From an uncultured bacterium (lineage in GTDB: Bacteria > Patescibacteriota > Gracilibacteria > Absconditabacterales > Absconditicoccaceae): a stretch of 55,954 nt of DNA. Positions within the stretch are counted from its first letter, which is position 1. Every line of letters begins with the position of its first letter. Below are positions 13,678 through 49,532 of the stretch, in pieces. The notes under the pieces were generated by a model that worked only from the letters and a program-made list of their open reading frames with translations, was not told the origin of the DNA and searched no databases. Both the position numbers and the translations under genes were made by a program. Location: NCBI GenBank assembly GCA_903904875.1, contig CAIVEC010000013.1, positions 1 to 55,954 of the forward strand, in the 5' to 3' direction.

Positions 13678-14112
13678 ATGGGAGGAAGTAAGGACTGATC
13701 AGAAAATTTACAGAATAACCAAACAAATACTATTTCAAAGACCGAAAGCGTGGAAGAATTATCAGCTATGGCGATCAAAAATAACTTTTTGATGTTACAA
13801 AAAGAATTTCTTCAAAAAAATTGGGACTCTATCTGTAAATACTCTCCTGTAATCAAATCGTTATTGGAAATACCCGAATTACAGGACATCAAATTAGATA
13901 ATATAAGCATGATTAGTGACAAAAAACATATGATTGAAAATTATTTATTTATAGAAACCTCTATAGATTATGATGGAAATCTCTATCAATTTTTATTAGG
14001 CAAAGGGTTCTCCACTGAAATCATACAACCGACTATTAGATCAAATCTTGATGCGGGAATATTATTTTGCTATAAGGATTTCCAGTTATTTCTCAAACAA
14101 GAAAATATATAA
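13678..14112 (+). CDS. Array paralog A (MGGSKD family)
   Basis: A 144-residue protein of an unrecognised family that occurs four times in tandem here. The N-terminus MGGSKDGSENL is almost invariant among the copies. It is followed by a low-complexity Asn/Thr/Lys linker, then a domain with LLMLQKE-like helices, an LLEIPELQDIKLDNI motif and a C-terminal FLKQENI. Copies B, C and D carry Cys in place of Ser at position 4. There is no signal peptide. The start is fixed by the shared leader CACCATGGGAGGA. One TGA glycine is present near the N-terminus. Confidence 0.8.
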
Positions 14113-14143
14113 TTATAATTTTTACCTTATAAACATTATCACC

Positions 14144-14590
14144 ATGGGAGGATGTAAGGATCTTTTATGATGAAATCAATTAAGAAATGAAAAGAATACT
14201 ACTGATTCACAGACACATAAATCAGCTGATGAAATCATAGCTAATCTTTTGATGTTACAAAAAGAACTTGATCAAGAAACTTGGAAGAGTATTTGCGAAA
14301 ATACTGATGCTAAATTATTATTGGAAATACCGGAATTTCAAAAAAATCTTACTATAGATAGAATAGAACACATAAAAAGTGTTTTCCATTGAGAAATTGG
14401 TCATTTACATGTATACGCTTCTGCGTTTAAGAAAGGAAAAGACGATCTTTTTGATCTAGTATTAAGTAAATTTCCTGCAGAGACAATACAACCCATATTT
14501 TCCAAACATGGTGGTTTCAATCCTCCATATGACGGAGTAGAAATTTCTTTCAAAAATGAAAAAATCTTTGTTCGTATCAAACAAAAATAA
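14144..14590 (+). CDS. Array paralog B (MGGCKD family)
   Basis: A 148-residue paralog starting MGGCKDLLGG, with a Thr/Ser linker, LLMLQKELDQETWKSICE, LLLEIPEFQKN and a C-terminal FVRIKQK. It is the most diverged in the central part (HGEIGHLHVYASAFKK). It lies 31 bases after copy A and is preceded by the same TTTTTACCTTATAAACATTATCACC leader type. Three glycines are TGA. The conserved Cys4 is not preceded by a hydrophobic signal, so a lipoprotein is unlikely. Function unknown. Confidence 0.78.
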
Positions 14591-14627
14591 CTATCATCAT
14601 AATTTTTACCTTATAAATATTATTACC

Positions 14628-15098
14628 ATGGGAGGATGTAAAGACTGATCAGAAAATCTAAAAGATGAAACATCAGAAAATCAAGAAACAGGTATAAATA
14701 AGATACAAAGAAAATCTACAAAAGAAGTCAGAGAGAATTTCCAATCTTTAAATAAGGAACTCTTGCAGAAAAATCTAGAACTTCTTGTAAAGGTGGATCC
14801 TAACATCAAAAAAATCTCAGAGATACCCGAATTACAGGATCTCAGATTGGAAAGGATTGATGTGTATGGGAACCATAGATTACGGATAGACTGATCAACA
14901 AGTTTTGATGGAAATCTCCGCCAGCTCTTATTGAAGCATGGATTCAATAAAAATCAATTAGTATCAGATACATGAGCGACAGCAAAAGCTGAAGAAAAAT
15001 TAACAGGAAATAAACAGATACCAAAAATTTGAGTAAGAATATGCTTATATTGATCATCTCTCCAAATTTCCATAAAACAAGAAACCCTATCCAAGTAA
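14628..15098 (+). CDS. Array paralog C (MGGCKD family)
   Basis: A 156-residue paralog starting MGGCKDGSENLKDETSE. Shared blocks are a KSTKEVRENFQSLNKELLQKNL helix, ISEIPELQDLRLERIDV, a strand RIDGSTSFDGNLRQLLLKHGF and a C-terminal ISIKQE. It is closest to copy D, with which it shares the ST(K)E...DGNLRQLL blocks almost residue for residue. Glycines are encoded by several TGAs. It is followed by a copied piece of the elp3 3' end and a terminator. Confidence 0.78.
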
Positions 15099-15130
15099 TT
15101 TTTTGATCATATAGCTTCACTCGAGCTTGT
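15097..15130. repeat. Copied 3' end of elp3 behind paralog C
   Basis: The run CATATAGCTTCACTCGAGCTT directly after paralog C is identical to the last codons of the real elp3 at 15659-15691, read in the same orientation relative to the paralog. It marks the array unit as paralog plus convergent elp3 tail. Confidence 0.8.
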
Positions 15131-15156
15131 AAAAACACCTGAAGACCGGTGTTTTT
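15131..15156 (+). terminator. Rho-independent terminator after paralog C
   Basis: AAAAACACC / GGTGTTTTT stem with a GAAGA-type loop followed by T-rich sequence. Confidence 0.8.
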
Positions 15157-15223
15157 CTTTTATTGACTTTTTATTTCAAATATATAAATATGAGATTAAA
15201 TTTACTTATTAACATCTATCACC

Positions 15224-15658
15224 ATGGGAGGATGTAAGGACTGACTAGAAAATCTAAAGAACGATACAACCAAAAAACATGAAACAGGCACCGATAAGAT
15301 AAAGAAAAAATCTACAAAAGAAATTCATGAGAATCTCGAATTATTGAAAAAATGATTATTAGAGCATAATCTAAAATATCTCGTACAAAAAGACCCTAAT
15401 ATAAGAAAAATTATTGAGCTGCCTGAATTGCAGGATTTTAAAATGAAAGACATCGATACAGATTTCGACTTCATAACCATACACTGATCAACGGACTTTA
15501 ATTGAAATCTTCGCCAACTCCTAATAAAAAACTGATTTAACAAAAACAATGTGTCCATCCTACGTGATAGTCGTTGAGCGCTTGAAAAATGAATACATAT
15601 AACTTTTTATTGATCGTGTCTTAGAGTAAATATCAAACAAGAAAAATTATCATCATAA
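15224..15658 (+). CDS. Array paralog D (MGGCKD family)
   Basis: A 144-residue paralog starting MGGCKDGLENLKNDTTK, very similar in layout to copy C (KSTKEIHENLELLKKG, IIELPELQDFKMKDID, ITIHGSTDFNGNLRQLLIKNGF, VNIKQEKLSS). Nine or so glycines are TGA. It lies 125 bases after copy C, with its own leader. Its 3' end overlaps the convergent elp3 stop by 12 bases, an arrangement that explains why copy C is trailed by an elp3 fragment. Confidence 0.78.
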
Positions 15659-17500
15659 TTTCTTGACCATATAGCTTCACTCGAGCTTATACCCTAGCTT
15701 TCTGTAATACGCTCTGACTCAGATGCCGGAGATAACGGAAAGCTTTTTGTATTTGTGTCATTGAGAAATCTGCTCAGCTATTTCCATAAGCTGTTTACCG
15801 AATCACTTGTGCTGAACCTTATCACTATTTTTTTTCTTCTTTTCTAATCACTCCATTTGTCCGTAGACATGTAATTCTCTAATTATCGCTGTTTGTTTTC
15901 CTAATCACGGAATCTGTATCGTATCTTTTTCATTAGGCAATAAGAGTCTTGTGAACCCGTATAAATATCCTAACTGATCTTCACAACTAATAAAATATTC
16001 CACTCCTCCACTACTCATATATTTTCTTATTATCAAATTCGTTCATTCATTTTTCATTTTTCATTTTTCATTTTTCATTCTGTTCCTGATTTCGCGGCTT
16101 CTCGTATCCAAAGAAACAAAATTTCTGAACGATTTCACGTCCGGTTGTTTTCCGACAATGATTGTCTGGATTTCATCATTTTTTCTAACGATTTTTCCCA
16201 GTTCTTCTTTGAGCGCTTTTTGCAGAGACGTGTATAACGAATATTTTCAGTATAATCTTTGGTAAAACTTTTTTCGTTCCGTTGGTTTACTTTTTTGTTC
16301 CTGCAGCAACTGATTGTGCATGAGTTGTGAAAGATTTGTTATCGTGCTTCATGCAACGATCTCATTTGCAGGAATATCGCGGATCAAACGCTTGATTCTT
16401 GTATATGGAGGAATGACGGTCAAAAAAGTTACTCTGATAAGTTTTTTGATATCGCTGGTTTCTAGCGGTGTATATTTTCCTTGGTTGTAGAGTCTGCAAA
16501 GTTGAGTATTGGGAATGACGGACGTAGGATAGAATTTGATTTCATCCGGTTTGAAAAATGGGTCTGTATATAAATTTTTAAATGTTAATACATCTTTAGC
16601 GTAATCAGAGCCGTAAAGTCCTGGCATTACATGCAAACAAAATTTGAAGCCGTATTGCCTAAGCTTATGACAGGCTTCACGCGCTTGCTGGACGGTATGC
16701 CCTCTTTTATTCAGCTTTAAAACATTCTCGTCCAATGACTGCACTCACATCTCGATCCTCGTCACTCCGAGTTCGCGTCGGAATTGGCAGTTCTCATCAG
16801 TCACGTATTCCGGTCTTGTTTCTATCGTCAGTCAGATGATTCTATGCGCTGCGCTTTCATTTGTTTTCAATGCTTCAGTAATATTGTTTGAATATTTTAT
16901 TTTTTTATTCTTATCTACTATCGCGTGAGAATATTTTTTGGTCGTAGAAATTTTGATGTTCTTGAAATATTCGTCGAAGGTATTGCAGGCATCGTAGAGC
17001 TCCTTGATGAATTTCGTCTTATACGCTTTCGTGTAGACGTCGAAGGTTCATCAGAGAACGATCATCTCTATCTTGTCGGTTTCATGACCGGTTAATGTGA
17101 GTGAAAGCAATCTATTGTAGACTTGTTTGATCGGATCGAATTTATTGAGCAATGCTCTCATGGCGCCCGGCTCGGATTTGATATAGCTCTTTGGCATGGT
17201 CGGATCGTTGGGACAGAAAATGCATTGGCCGGGACACGGAAATGGTTTGGTCAGCACTTGAATTGCTACAATTCATGAACCAGATCTGATTGCTTTTTTT
17301 TTGAGCAACTGCTCTATCTGTGGATCTTTGGTGATTTTCTTGGTTTTCAACAGTTCGTAATAGGCTTGAAGCAATTGGATATTCGATGGTATATCGGCTA
17401 ATTTATTTGTTTTAGCAAAATCCCTCTTGAGACTGGTAAGAAGGTCAAGATTACGGTCCTGGGGTTTGGTTTTGACTAATTGTACGATGATTTTTTTCAT
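15647..17500 (-). CDS. elp3: Elp3-like tRNA uridine C5 carboxymethyl synthase
   Basis: A 617-residue radical SAM plus acetyltransferase protein of the Elp3 family. It modifies the wobble U34 of tRNA using acetyl-CoA and SAM. The iron-sulfur motif is PCPGQCIFCPNDP. It is followed by MPKSY and EPGAMRALLNKFDP, then IETRPEYV and RIEMGVQSLDENVL. The C-terminal GNAT domain has GYLYGFTRLLLP, HKGFGKQLM and the end block YYRKLGYKLEGSYMVKKL. It contains a short in-frame insertion (MKNEKGKMKNE) at about residues 473-488 made of R4-type repeat DNA. Start ATG at 17500. Bacterial members are uncommon outside some lineages. Confidence 0.93.
16036..16080. repeat. R4-end type insertion within elp3
   Basis: Tandem CATTTTTCATTTTTCATT units identical to the terminal sequence of R4 elements interrupt elp3 in frame just before the conserved acetyltransferase strand. 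Confidence 0.65.
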
Positions 17501-30479: not shown

Positions 30480-31130
30480 TTAATTACCCCAACCAAAGTT
30501 CAGGAAGCCATCTTTTTTATATTTGGCTTTATTGTTGGGATTAATTGCAAAATTTTTGAAATAATAATTTAGTTCATCTTTATACTGCCATACAACAGTT
30601 TCGTCGGGGTCAAAGATGAAGAGATGTTGTATCTCTAATTCCATCCAATCAACTCTTTCTCCCATAGTCCAATCTGGAGGACCATTAACAATTCCTGAAC
30701 AGTAGTTTTTTAAGCGAAGAAGAAGTTTGTCAGAATACCGTTTGCATACCCTGTAGACGTCAATCTGTACGCCTACACCAATGCCGTCCCATACTTTTGA
30801 TTGATGTTTCGGGTGTTTTCCACGCCAGTATTCATCATATTTTGATATGACTAGCGGTATGTCACCACGATCGGAGCGGAAGGTGTCTGCTTTCAATTCA
30901 TGCAGCAGCACTACCATTACTTCATTGGTGCAATAGTTTGCGAGGCTATCATACGTTGAAGGATTTGAAGTTGATCTATTACGATCAATAAGGTCTTCCA
31001 TCTGTTTGATTTTCTCCCCGGTTTGTTTCAGTATTTCTACTTTGATGTATCGGGGCTGGCCGTCTTTTTTGCAACTAGGGGTAGCTACAATCAAGGCAAT
31101 TCCCAAAACGAGAAAAATTAATTTTTTCAT
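30480..31130 (-). CDS. Putative lipoprotein, possibly acquired
   Basis: A 216-residue protein with signal peptide KKLIFLVLGIALIVATPSC and a lipobox-like cysteine. The mature part, with VEILKQTGEKIKQMEDLID, SLANYCTNEVMVVLL and VWQYKDELNYYFKNFAI, is not recognised. All its glycines (about a dozen) use GGN and none uses TGA, unlike most neighbours of this size, and it carries seven Trp codons. It forms a compact unit with its own promoter (31177-31204) and terminator (30429-30457). It ends in TAA, so by itself it does not prove a foreign code. Homologs may be found in standard-code bacteria. Confidence 0.8.
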   Translation of the reverse strand: MKKLIFLVLGIALIVATPSCKKDGQPRYIKVEILKQTGEKIKQMEDLIDRNRSTSNPSTYDSLANYCTNEVMVVLLHELKADTFRSDRGDIPLVISKYDEYWRGKHPKHQSKVWDGIGVGVQIDVYRVCKRYSDKLLLRLKNYCSGIVNGPPDWTMGERVDWMELEIQHLFIFDPDETVVWQYKDELNYYFKNFAINPNNKAKYKKDGFLNFGWGN

Positions 31131-34373: not shown

Positions 34374-34852
34374 TGTTTACCTATATGACAGAGAGACATC
34401 TAAATCTTCAGCAATTAGACCGTGTCTTTATCTTTCTCCTATCAAGAAAGGATATCAACAAAAAAACGCTATTCAAAAGATTAGCCACAGCAAGATTGTT
34501 CTGTATATGTAGAAAATGAAACCAGTTAGTATGATTCTGATGTTTGAGACAGCCATCAAAAACCGTATTAAGTTATTTGCCTATATCTTCCAAAAGGATA
34601 GATAGCGACTGTTTGGAAAGCTGATTTTTTTATACCCATCCATCATATAGATGACATGGGATAGCTTCAACAATCCAAAAAAAACTTTTAAAAAACACTC
34701 TAGCAAACACTATTATATCAGTTACCAGGATAGACAATATTCCCATGCAAAAAATACTGCAAAAATGCGGATTTACCTATACAGGCAAATCATATTTTAA
34801 TGCCTTTTTACAGAAACAAGTGCATATATACATGTATACAAACAACTCATAA
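34373..34852 (+). CDS. GNAT-family N-acetyltransferase
   Basis: A 159-residue GNAT. The acetyl-CoA loop is FYTHPSYRGHGIASTIQKKLL (R-x-x-G-x-G/A form). It is followed by ISVTRIDNIPMQKILQKCGFTYTGKSYFN, the usual beta5-alpha4 block in which N-x-x-x-x-x-x-x-x-G-F is typical. A cysteine-rich N-terminal strand region (RLFCICRKGNQLVGFGC) is notable. It is coupled to the ATP-grasp gene by a one-base stop-start overlap, so the two products probably act on the same molecule. The acetyl acceptor is not known. Confidence 0.85.
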
Positions 34853-42201: not shown

Positions 42202-42852
42202 ATGCCAAAAAGAAAACCAGAAAACAAGCGGATAGAAGTTATCCTCTTGCAAAGCGATAAGCACCTCGGGGAAAAATTCGAAATCATCAAAGTAAAGCCT
42301 ATTTTTGCCAGAAATGTCTTGTTACCGAAAAATATCGCGGTCCTCGGAGACGCAAACAACAAGAACAAATTCGCTCAGAAGATGGCAGCTGCAGAAGTCG
42401 ATAGAAAAAAGAAAGCTGCGGGCTTGGACGATCTTTTCGTAAAACTTCACAATGATGGAGGTATTACGCTGGTCAGAAAAGCTAACGCTGAAGGAACCTT
42501 GTATGCAAAAGTCGATGAGAACGATATAGCGACCGCTATCAACGAAGTGTATGGGACAGCCATCGAACCACATTATTTAAAGCTTAAAAAGAAAATCACT
42601 GCGCTTGGAAACTTCACCGTTCCATTCTTGTATAAAGAACTCAAAAAGGATGTAGCCGTCAAAGTCGAACAGGATCCAGAAGAAGCAGAAAAATTAGCGA
42701 AACATAAAAGTTCTAAAACCGCTAAAGCGGAACCAGATGAAGAAGTGAAAGTGAAGAAAACAAGAGACGAGATAGCCAAAGAGAAAGAAGCAGCTAAACA
42801 AGTTAAAAGAGCTGAAACCATCAAGAGATTGAAAGAGAAGTTCAAGGACTAA
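42202..42852 (+). CDS. rplI: Ribosomal protein bL9, C-terminally extended
   Basis: A 216-residue bL9. The N-terminal domain has RIEVILLQSDKHLGEKFEII and VKPIFARNVLLPKNIAVLGD, matching the L9 signature. The long connecting helix is NKFAQKMAAAEVDRKKKAAG and the C-terminal domain has KLHNDGGITLVRKANAEGTLY. After the usual 150 residues comes a 65-residue highly charged Lys/Glu-rich tail (EEAEKLAKHKSSKTAKAE, KTRDEIAKEKEAAKQ). There is no TGA glycine, as in hup, consistent with high expression. ATG at 42202 fits MPKRKPENKRIEV; an earlier in-frame ATG would add a hydrophobic stretch and is rejected. Confidence 0.9.
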   Translation: MPKRKPENKRIEVILLQSDKHLGEKFEIIKVKPIFARNVLLPKNIAVLGDANNKNKFAQKMAAAEVDRKKKAAGLDDLFVKLHNDGGITLVRKANAEGTLYAKVDENDIATAINEVYGTAIEPHYLKLKKKITALGNFTVPFLYKELKKDVAVKVEQDPEEAEKLAKHKSSKTAKAEPDEEVKVKKTRDEIAKEKEAAKQVKRAETIKRLKEKFKD

Positions 42853-43034
42853 AAATAGACGAAAAGTTGCCGAACGGTTGCTAAAAGATAGCTAACTTTA
42901 GGCAATATTTTAGCGCGAAGCGTTTGTCGTGAGTCCGACAGGACGAATATTAGTCTAAAGAAAGTTGAAGCATAACCATGCTTATCATATTCCCGCTTCG
43001 CGGGAGTGAAAATCCGCCTAGGCGGATTTTTTTT
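42853..43034 (+). terminator. 3' region of rplI with terminator at 43009-43034
   Basis: After rplI come 150 bases with several small inverted repeats (AGTTGCCGAACGGTTGCT, TTCCCGCTTCGCGGGA). Then a perfect AATCCGCCTAGGCGGATT palindrome with an eight-T run is the likely terminator. Parts resemble the nusA-mutL gap at 50579-50685. Confidence 0.8.
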
Positions 43035-43037
43035 ATT

Positions 43038-43064
43038 AAAAAAACCGTGTGAACACACACGGTA
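43038..43064 (-). terminator. Terminator of the 137-aa membrane gene
   Basis: On the minus strand ACCGTGTG / CACACGGT followed by seven T, starting 4 bases after the TGA at 43071-43069. If TGA were Gly the hairpin would be translated. Confidence 0.88.
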
Positions 43065-43068
43065 GATG

Positions 43069-43482
43069 TCAAGAACTTTCAAGGGATTTTCTCTTATCAT
43101 AATGATATCTAAAGATACCTAATGTTATGATAAATCCGATAGGGAATACATAGACATTTACTATTACCCAGGATGAGGTGGTAATACCTACTCCTATTGT
43201 CGCCATTATGATCAGTATAAACATAACAGCCAGTACGATACCCATGATACCTACACATTTGTAATAATGCTTTCTTGTTCTACGCAGAACGCATAATTTA
43301 AGCAATAACCAGAACATATAGTAGAATGCTACATCAGCAACGAAGACTATCCAGGGCCGGTTACCTATCAATCCTCCTATCATCAGAGAGCATACCAAGA
43401 ACACGCCTATAACCAGGATAATGGGAATCCATCGCAACAACCAGCTGCCAAGATCCGAAATGTTTTTTATAATTTTTTTCAT
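43069..43482 (-). CDS. Multi-pass membrane protein that appears to stop at TGA
   Basis: A 137-residue protein with four hydrophobic helices (IPIILVIGVFLVCSLMIGG, FVADVAFYYMFWLLLKL, MGIVLAVMFILIIMATIGVG, FPIGFIITLGIF) and basic loops. None of its 11 glycines is TGA, and the frame ends in TGA just before a hairpin terminator. If TGA is read as Gly the product gains 11 residues, ending at TAA 43038-43036 after running through the hairpin. The compact promoter-gene-terminator form and codon pattern suggest acquisition from a standard-code bacterium. No family is recognised. Coordinates are given for the TGA-stop reading. Confidence 0.75.
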   Translation of the reverse strand: MKKIIKNISDLGSWLLRWIPIILVIGVFLVCSLMIGGLIGNRPWIVFVADVAFYYMFWLLLKLCVLRRTRKHYYKCVGIMGIVLAVMFILIIMATIGVGITTSSWVIVNVYVFPIGFIITLGIFRYHYDKRKSLESS

Positions 43483-43507
43483 AATTTTTTATTTTTTTGT
43501 TACTTAT

Positions 43508-43535
43508 CTTATATTTATTTACTGATAAATGTCAA
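43508..43535 (-). promoter_or_regulatory. Promoter of the 137-aa membrane gene
   Basis: TTGACA (43535-43530) and TATAAG (43513-43508) with a 16-base spacer. The -10 and spacing equal those of the cassette at 48976-49003. Confidence 0.7.
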
Positions 43536-43602
43536 CCTCACTTACCAGTGGATTTTGGGAGCGAATTTTCTATAAAGCTACTATTTATTCTTCGATATCT
43601 CT

Positions 43603-45156
43603 ATGTTTCAATTACAATCATCATATAAACCAGCCGGAGATCAGATCAAAGCCATCGAGCAGATCAAGAAGCTTTTTGAAAGCGGAAAAAATAAGGCTAC
43701 CCTACTCTGAGCGACAGGAACCGGAAAGACGTTTACCATGGCGAATATGATCCAGCATTTACAGAAACCGACATTAATCATTTCACACAATAAAACACTT
43801 GCTGCGCAGCTTGCAACGGAGTTCAAGTATTTTTTCCCGAACAACGCCGTGCATTATTTTGTTTCCTATTTTGATTATTACCAGCCGGAAAGCTATCTGC
43901 CGGACCAATGATTATATATAGAGAAAGAAGCTACCATCAATCAGGAAATCGAGATGTACAGACTAGCAACCATGGCTTCATTGCTTACGAGGAAAGATGT
44001 GATAGTAGTAGCGTCAGCGTCTTCGCTCTACGGTCTCGGACAGAAGAGATTCTTCGAAGAAAACTGTCTGCAATTCGAAGTAGGCAAGCAATACAAGTTC
44101 CGTGAACTTAAAAAGCAGCTTCTCCATATGCAATATAAACCTATTGTTTCCAAGATAGAACACGGAATGTTTGAATTCAAATGAGATATTCTGGATATCT
44201 TTTCCAGTACGGAGAAATTCGTGTACAGATTGCATTTCAACGAAGAAGTGCTTGAATTGATCGAACTGAAAGATTCATTAACCTTTGAACATAAAGAAAA
44301 TAAGAATAAAGTGACGCTTCGGCCAGCGACGCAATTCTTGCAGGACGTCTCAGATCTGGATACCATCTTGGAACAGATGAACGCTGAAAAAGAGCTCAGA
44401 GTGAAGGAATTTGAGAAACAATGAATGCTTGTGGAAGCTGAAAGGATAAAGAAAAGGGTGGAATACGATATCAGGATGATCAAGGAAACAGGATTCGTGA
44501 ATGGAATTGAAAATTACTCATTATATTTTGACAACAGACTTCCTGGTGAACCGCCAAACACGATTTTCGATTATTTCCCGGACGATTTTCTATTGATCAT
44601 CGATGAATCGCATATGACATTACCACAGTTGAGAGCCATGCCAGGAGGTGATAGATCAAGAAAAGCGAATCTTATAAAATACGGTTTCAGACTTCCTTCA
44701 GCGGTCGATCATAGACCACTCAGATTCGAAGAGCTTGAAGGAATTTTGGGCTGGAAAGATCTGAAAGATATCGTCCTAGATCAAGCATTTGATATTAATT
44801 CGAATGTATCGAATACGCACGTAGAAATCTTCAATAAATATAAGAAGATGAAAGAAGCGCGTGGAGAAAATCAGTTGATCACGTTGGTCAAAAAGCATAA
44901 AAAAGACGCGAAATCCATTTTCTTGTCTGCTACACCTGCCGAATACGAGCTGAAATTATCCGACAAAATCGTGGAACAGATCATCAGACCGACATGATTG
45001 TTGGATCCGATTACCTACGTCTATCCAAAATCAGGAAACTACGATTCACTCATCCTCAGTCTGGAAACATTGATGAAGAAAAAGCCTCATCTCAAGGAAT
45101 TCATGAAATGATATTCACTGAAAGATGGTATAGAGGAAGTGTTTAGCAATGACTAA
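43603..45156 (+). CDS. uvrB: UvrB, truncated before the C-terminal helicase domain
   Basis: A 517-residue excision-repair UvrB lacking its usual C-terminal third. Present are the Q-motif and Walker A ([16 protein letters not shown]), [19 protein letters not shown], the beta-hairpin region [23 protein letters not shown] box [33 protein letters not shown] and motif [14 protein letters not shown]. After [14 protein letters not shown] the frame runs about 40 more residues and stops in TAA. Helicase motifs IV-VI and the UVR UvrC-binding domain (normally to about 670 residues) are missing. rimO begins 4 bases later. It may be inactive or need a split partner. Confidence 0.9.
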
Positions 45157-48975: not shown

Positions 48976-49003
48976 TTGACTTTTATTATAAAATAAGTAT
49001 AAG
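48976..49003 (+). promoter_or_regulatory. Promoter of the 125-aa lipoprotein gene
   Basis: TTGACT (48976-48981) and TATAAG (48998-49003) with a 16-base spacer, 28 bases from the ATG at 49032. Confidence 0.7.
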
Positions 49004-49031: not shown

Positions 49032-49409
49032 ATGAAAAATTTATTCTTATTATTAGCCATTCTTTTTATCATGGCTGGATGCCATAGAGAAAAGACACAG
49101 GAAGAAAAAAAAGACAGTGAGATGACCGCGATGATACATAAAATGAAATATAATGAATATCGCGACATCGAAAACCTTCAATTCGGTTATCTTATCGACC
49201 GCATCAGAGCGAGTGAAAGAATGGGGAAGGTTGTACAATTAGGCGAAGAGGAATTCGATGTTTTTCACTACAACGACTCTACCGATGCTTATCCTTACTG
49301 TTTGGAGGGTAAAAGATATACTCTCTGCATCAATCCTAAATCCATATTTCCCGATCACTTCACGATCATGAAGACATGGAACGAAAATCAGGACCAGTAT
49401 AATGAATGA
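49032..49409 (+). CDS. Small lipoprotein that appears to stop at TGA
   Basis: A 125-residue lipoprotein. The signal peptide NLFLLLAILFIMAGC has a perfect lipobox, then a charged linker (HREKTQEEKKDSEM) and a compact domain (YNEYRDIENLQFGYLIDRIR, GEEEFDVFHYNDSTD). All five glycines are GGN. The frame meets TGA at 49407, seven bases before a hairpin terminator. Under code 25 it would run on 29 more residues to TAA at 49494. As in the cassette at 43069-43482, this looks like a gene built for TGA as stop. No family is recognised. Coordinates are for the TGA-stop reading. Confidence 0.72.
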   Translation: MKNLFLLLAILFIMAGCHREKTQEEKKDSEMTAMIHKMKYNEYRDIENLQFGYLIDRIRASERMGKVVQLGEEEFDVFHYNDSTDAYPYCLEGKRYTLCINPKSIFPDHFTIMKTWNENQDQYNE

Positions 49410-49416
49410 TATTTAT

Positions 49417-49439
49417 GGAGCGTGTTCGCTCCTTTTTTT
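49417..49439 (+). terminator. Terminator of the 125-aa lipoprotein gene
   Basis: GGAGCG / CGCTCC with a TGTT loop followed by seven T, immediately after the TGA codon. Confidence 0.88.
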
Positions 49440-49532
49440 GTTAACAGAAATACACTTGCAAACTTGCTCAGAAAGTATATCTTAAGTACAGGATAATATG
49501 ATTATCCTATTTTTTATTTACTGCCAAAACCC

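Follow-up and report, generated by a model that had tools for sequence, protein, structure and literature searches.

Code 25, in which UGA is assigned to glycine, was described for the Gracilibacteria (Hanke et al. 2014 and Ivanova et al. 2014, as cited in PMC6851277 and PMC11452946). Code-11-compatible phages targeted by Gracilibacteria/Absconditabacteria carry genes without in-frame TGA, some of which end in TGA, and these genes are still usable since a second stop lies close by (PMC10746230). Bacteroidota are among the frequent donors in gene gain by Patescibacteria (PMC12455944). Published precedent exists both for code-11-compatible phages and for Bacteroidota-to-Patescibacteria transfer.

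The DNA analyzed here, a stretch of 55,954 nucleotides from an uncultured member of the Absconditicoccaceae (the window), belongs to a genome which, like those of the code-25 Gracilibacteria, has TGA glycines and no recognisable RF2; the difference is that the terminal TGA of the gene at 43072-43482 occupies the stop site of its relatives and not a glycine position. With the code-11-compatible phages (PMC10746230) this gene shares the lack of internal TGA and the presence of TGA at its natural C-terminus in a TGA-glycine host. Unlike them, it is a single chromosomal gene with bL9 and uvrB as neighbours and with no phage homolog, and its next stop is located at or beyond the expected end of the transcript.

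TGA supplies 360 of 1027 glycine codons in the window (0.33 in genes of at least 150 aa) and approximately 29-35% of those in the genome. The release factor found in the genome was RF1, which scored 457 bits against the RF1 model, over the cut-off, and 264 bits against the RF2 model, under the cut-off of 370. A search for RF2 (prfB) in the 49 genomes of the family-level clade gave no score above the curated cut-off, against 10 positives among 14 control genomes. With no detectable RF2 in the lineage, TGA should be read through and not act as a stop. An ArfB-like rescue hydrolase was identified at 86 bits against the ArfB model, below the cut-off of 100, with the GGQ motif present.

The gene starts with ATG at 43482 on the minus strand, and the open reading frame including the TGA covers 43069-43482 (Table 1). 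The product has 137 aa if ended at TGA and 148 aa in the code-25 frame, which runs to the TAA at 43036-43038 and adds, counting the TGA glycine, the 11 residues GHLPCVFTRFF. The terminator hairpin has a folding energy of -12.5 kcal/mol (z -2.4). In the first-pass annotation the TGA was placed four bases before this hairpin; the order is right, and the gap was measured as 5 nt. A promoter scanner returned the same -35 box with an alternative 18-nt spacing to TAAGAT, and sigma-70-like boxes were also seen upstream of the homologs. The term cassette is used here only in the sense of promoter, ORF and terminator. Four long helices were predicted by AlphaFold from the single sequence (pLDDT 78), for which a membrane role appears probable; a PDB fold search of the model gave no match at E <= 0.001, and in a Pfam search nothing exceeded the curated cut-off, the best model being 7TMR-DISM_7TM (15.7 bits vs 29). 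Translation, codon count and direct reading thus agreed with the initial description of a 137-aa membrane protein gene that has its own promoter, 11 of 11 glycines encoded by GGN, its only TGA at the end of the frame and a code-25 extension of 11 residues into the terminator.

Table 1. Features of the variable interval and of similar genes in the window
Feature	Position	Strand	Basis or remark
rplI (bL9), left border of variable interval	42202..42852	+	TIGR00158; interval comparison
Code-25 stop TAA, built from last T of U-tract and two A	43036..43038	-	Sequence
Code-25 read-through tail, 10 further codons, overlaps terminator	43039..43068	-	Translation
Intrinsic terminator stem-loop ACCGTGTG-TGTT-CACACGGT, then T6 at 43043-43038	43044..43063	-	Terminator search
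TGA at natural stop position, glycine by code 25	43069..43071	-	Sequence and homolog ends
Coding sequence, 137 codons, 11 GGN glycines, no TGA	43072..43482	-	Translation, codon count, predicted four-helix membrane protein
Promoter-like TTGACA (43535-43530), 16 nt, TATAAG (43513-43508)	43508..43535	-	Direct sequence reading
uvrB, right border of variable interval	43603..45156	+	Named from sequence and synteny
Promoter of 125-aa lipoprotein, TTGACT (48976-48981), 16 nt, TATAAG (48998-49003)		+	Layout matches 43072-43482 gene
125-aa lipoprotein, no internal TGA, TGA 49407-49409, stem 49417-49432	49032..49409	+	TGA-terminator arrangement as in 43072-43482 gene
216-aa lipoprotein-like gene, 14 GGN, 0 TGA, own terminator, ordinary TAA stop	30480..31130	-	

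Members of the protein family were found in six of the 49 genomes of the family-level clade, namely this genome (G000), G039, G041, G022, G031 and G007, the closest relative being the protein of G039 (approximately 38% identity, E 1e-23). With a profile of the six members no further members were detected in 353 genomes of the class, nothing in about 380 genomes drawn evenly from the phylum, and no homolog in 424 Bacteroidota genomes (29 + 395); one Bacteroidota match (E 8e-4, 58 profile positions, inside a 447-codon frame) was marginal and partial and was taken as chance. A search for a donor in GTDB contigs and IMG/VR with the single protein gave no match, nor did tblastn with it against phages (50,697 phage records) and plasmids. 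Standard-code homologs ending at this TGA, to which the first-pass annotation had looked for support of an import, were therefore absent from all of these collections. A match in G002, a transporter-like ORF with TGA glycines, was dropped from the family, and a pattern-based locus search with the six-member alignment was abandoned as the sequences are too diverged. Over all six members TGA accounts for none of 44 glycines; given local TGA fractions of 0.32-0.64 the chance of this is about 1e-12, as a product in which independence is assumed and shared descent ignored.

The members of G041, G022, G031 and G007 have TAA at the corresponding end and are without the tail. The G039 gene ends in ...KNKSVSR-TGA-TATTTATCATCA, then ATCCTGG-TAAT-CCAGGAT-TTTTTTT, with the terminator within approximately 12 nt of the TGA. 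The next TAA is reached after 11 codons in G000, at the end of the U-tract, and after 24 codons in G039, past the U-tract and terminator. A G039 transcript ended at the terminator therefore has no stop codon, and no native gene should place its stop beyond the U-tract. The TAA ends of the four relatives and the TGA-terminator arrangement of G039 together indicate that the TGA sits at the natural stop, as had been proposed. No code-25 homolog aligned convincingly through the tail. Its first residues are similar in G000 (G-H-L-P) and G039 (G-Y-L-S), a stretch too short to judge homology, and this likeness may be a weak hint of an old tail.

The relatives in G007, G022 and G031 likewise occupy the bL9-uvrB interval and are oriented as in G000. 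Their presence there in separate assemblies speaks against a chimeric assembly, or a contaminant stretch from a standard-code genome, as the source of the gene; the assembly is a fragmented bin of 49 contigs with a contamination of 3.38, but no standard-code genome with the gene was found either, and this explanation is considered very improbable. The shared position suggests, from gene order, a long residence of the family in the clade. As a clade-resident family, found mostly at the same locus, it does not represent an isolated recent acquisition. In the gene tree, the TGA-ended members of G000 (genus g1) and G039 (g15) group across genera with a support of 92/93, and G007 (g1) is closest to G022 (g15), at 35%. 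The family proteins of G000 and G007, which belong to the same genus, are approximately 27% identical; the values for uvrB and bL9 are 93% and approximately 80%. Based on this low identity and the conflict between tree and genus, the gene has been swapped, has moved horizontally, or is evolving extremely fast.

The bL9-uvrB interval measures approximately 220 bp in G002 and 360 bp in G005, and in G001, G004, G006, G007 and G008 it is occupied by small genes, from one to several per genome, in many of which TGA glycines are few or absent. Together with its counterparts (G001-G009, G022, G031 and G039), the interval 42852-43603 is a hot spot in which small genes vary between genomes, among them NDK, lipoproteins, membrane proteins and a HAD-like protein. 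The G039 locus shows a run of TGA-free genes (HIT, the family member, an 81-aa ORF and a 351-aa lipoprotein) with TGA at 0 of 26 glycines. The adjoining uvrB has only 516-517 codons in G000, G007 and G022, which seems short for UvrB; across the whole clade, the C-terminal region may be absent or changed.

The glycine codons, which had been taken as the mark of import, proved to be a weak one. Genes for translation (bL9, bL19, uS7, uS12, bL25, HU and EF-Tu) have TGA in only 6 of approximately 98 glycine codons, so expression can also remove TGA, and the absence of TGA was not accepted on its own as proof of a foreign gene. The probability of finding 0 of 11 TGA glycines by chance is about 0.009-0.012 at a TGA fraction of 33-35%, which is only moderately unusual. 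The stronger fact is the location of the TGA at the stop of the homologs and directly before a terminator. The non-glycine codon score of the gene was -2.9, compared with -4.5 (sd 3.5) for native and 2.5 (sd 3.5) for import genes; among 137-codon pieces of native genes, 31% reach this score or a more import-like one, and among import pieces a score this low is seen in only 4%. In its non-glycine codons the gene thus fits native genes better than imports, falling inside the native range and at the lower limit of the imports.

The TGA-poor translation genes, the near-consensus promoter and a code-25 frame that reaches TAA after 11 residues would also agree with a native, highly expressed gene in which GGN is kept by translational selection, the terminal TGA is a glycine and 148 aa are intended. 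This is thought improbable: in its non-glycine codons the gene does not resemble those for translation (-10.2 per 100 codons against native), the terminator hairpin itself codes for the tail, which four relatives do not have, and the TAA of G039 lies beyond the U-tract, hence most of its transcripts would be stop-less.

Clear imports were identified elsewhere in the genome. Two proteins with T9SS sorting domains, of 694 aa (0 TGA, 88 GGN) and 515 aa (0 TGA, 28 GGN), and a 1216-aa protein with eleven SprB repeats and a CHU_C domain (0 TGA, 130 GGN) are TGA-free; T9SS/SprB genes were located on other contigs of the genome (L118 1840-7817, L106 16872-19980 and L122 5435-6982). The guaB gene (IMP dehydrogenase; 0 TGA, 47 GGN) is 63-67% identical to its best 80 GTDB matches, which are Bacteroidota by title or known lineage, bar one titled 'uncultured bacterium'. 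It is adjacent to purA at L112 7688-10557, the two having 0 TGA and 91 GGN glycines, and purN (L106 4539-5147) is likewise TGA-free. The guaB, T9SS and SprB genes share contigs with TGA-rich genes, and Bacteroidota-type TGA-free genes among TGA-rich ones mean that the genome holds uncorrected standard-code imports. They are direct support for the import idea in general and indirect support for the 43072-43482 gene, which resembles them in having zero TGA glycines and its own terminator. Compared with the transfer reported in PMC12455944, the likeness lies in the TGA-free Bacteroidota-type guaB and the T9SS-sorted proteins of this genome, the difference in the 424 Bacteroidota genomes being without a homolog of the 43072-43482 gene. 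The import from a standard-code donor proposed in the first-pass annotation is therefore supported in part: uncorrected Bacteroidota imports exist in the genome, but for this gene no donor homolog was found in the collections searched.

Genome statistics were obtained from approximately 516 kb of 966 kb, sampled as stretches. In this sample, zero TGA was counted in 42 of the 432 genes that have six or more glycine codons. A terminator accompanies 18 of these 42; for genes above 10% TGA the figure is 18 of 370 (odds ratio 14.7, P 9e-11). By-eye counting of TGA-free ORFs located before a terminator gave approximately 29 TAA, 5 TAG and 3 TGA stops. The TGA cases were the 43072-43482 gene, the lipoprotein gene at 49032-49409, whose TGA-terminator unit spans 49032-49496 on the plus strand, and a 140-aa ORF on C18 (L112), a relative of which in the bL9-uvrB interval of G004 also shows TGA and then a terminator. 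The gene at 30480-31130 is probably of the same TGA-free class. This TGA-free, terminator-bearing accessory set, with the Bacteroidota imports, is better supported than the origin of the 43072-43482 gene itself.

Several further arrangements were seen. A lipoprotein paralog in L225 (G005:C9, approximately 34490-34831, minus strand) has a coding part which seemingly ends TGA-TGA (...TVTKR), with TAG approximately 12 codons later beside a terminator, a possible relic stop. The ORF at 15647-17500 (minus strand) of the window has TGA-TAA as final codons, where the TGA could be a C-terminal glycine or a relic stop backed up at once by the TAA, and adjacent ORFs at 13678-15658 (plus strand) with an MGGCKDG(S/L)ENL-like start are apparent tandem paralogs. 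NDK in G007 was weakened as a clean TGA-stop case, its ortholog ending approximately 20 codons earlier, and several apparent cases of a terminator inside an ORF were spurious ORFs.

The syntenic G004 ortholog of the lipoprotein at 49032-49409 (60% identical) has TAA at the exact same codon and an identical terminator, GGAGCG...CGCTCC-T7. One TAA/TGA exchange would give this difference, as expected under a serious rival, in which a native TAA became TGA in place by one transition, the short tail to the TAA at the U-tract being tolerated and no import being involved. The TAA ends of most members of the 43072-43482 family, the native-like codon usage outside glycine and a locus common to relatives would all fit such a stop loss. 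Among 367 reciprocal-best pairs of orthologs near the locus in the genus, both partners stop together in 278 and an overhang is seen in only 11; TGA at the stop of the partner was found for one gene, the TGA-free lipoprotein, and for no TGA-rich native gene, which argues against stop loss in place. The cases of TGA before a terminator are, moreover, TGA-free accessory genes, and the lipoprotein exchange can also be read as a TGA corrected to TAA in G004. Stop loss in place is ranked second, as a tentative alternative.

The likeliest reading of the TGA of the 43072-43482 gene is that of a relic stop of standard-code ancestry, to which a probability of roughly 0.5 is given. The gene is one of several TGA-ended genes in the lineage and is probably left from passage through bacteria with the standard code. 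It is a self-contained accessory gene, consisting of promoter, one ORF and terminator, for a fast-evolving, predicted four-helix membrane protein, and would derive from a pool of TGA-free genes that enter the genomes of the code-25 clade, partly from standard-code bacteria. As a relic stop, the TGA would have terminated the protein in cells with RF2; in an RF2-less cell it would be read as glycine and the ribosome would traverse the terminator hairpin. A transcript reaching the TAA would then give the 148-aa product with the tail, and on a transcript ending in the U-tract the ribosome, meeting no stop codon, would stall and depend on rescue, for which the ArfB-like gene may serve.

A wider proposal, regarded as unlikely, is that promoter-ORF-terminator genes are taken up by the clade from a mobile pool and, through regular passage in standard-code cells, stay free of TGA and in some cases keep TGA as their stop, in a traffic of genes readable in both codes. 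If this were true, the TGA-stopped members would be copies newly arrived in code-25 cells, where their products are made from stop-less mRNA.

A reassigned stop codon is a directly readable mark, since imports are without the new sense codon and may carry a dead stop. In this genome the Bacteroidota-derived guaB and T9SS proteins, the orphan lipoproteins and the 43072-43482 membrane protein form a graded set, which lets gene flow across the code barrier, and the rates of TGA-glycine gain and TGA-stop loss, be measured. A TGA directly before a terminator is also a natural test of how an RF2-less cell faces mRNAs that end before a usable stop.
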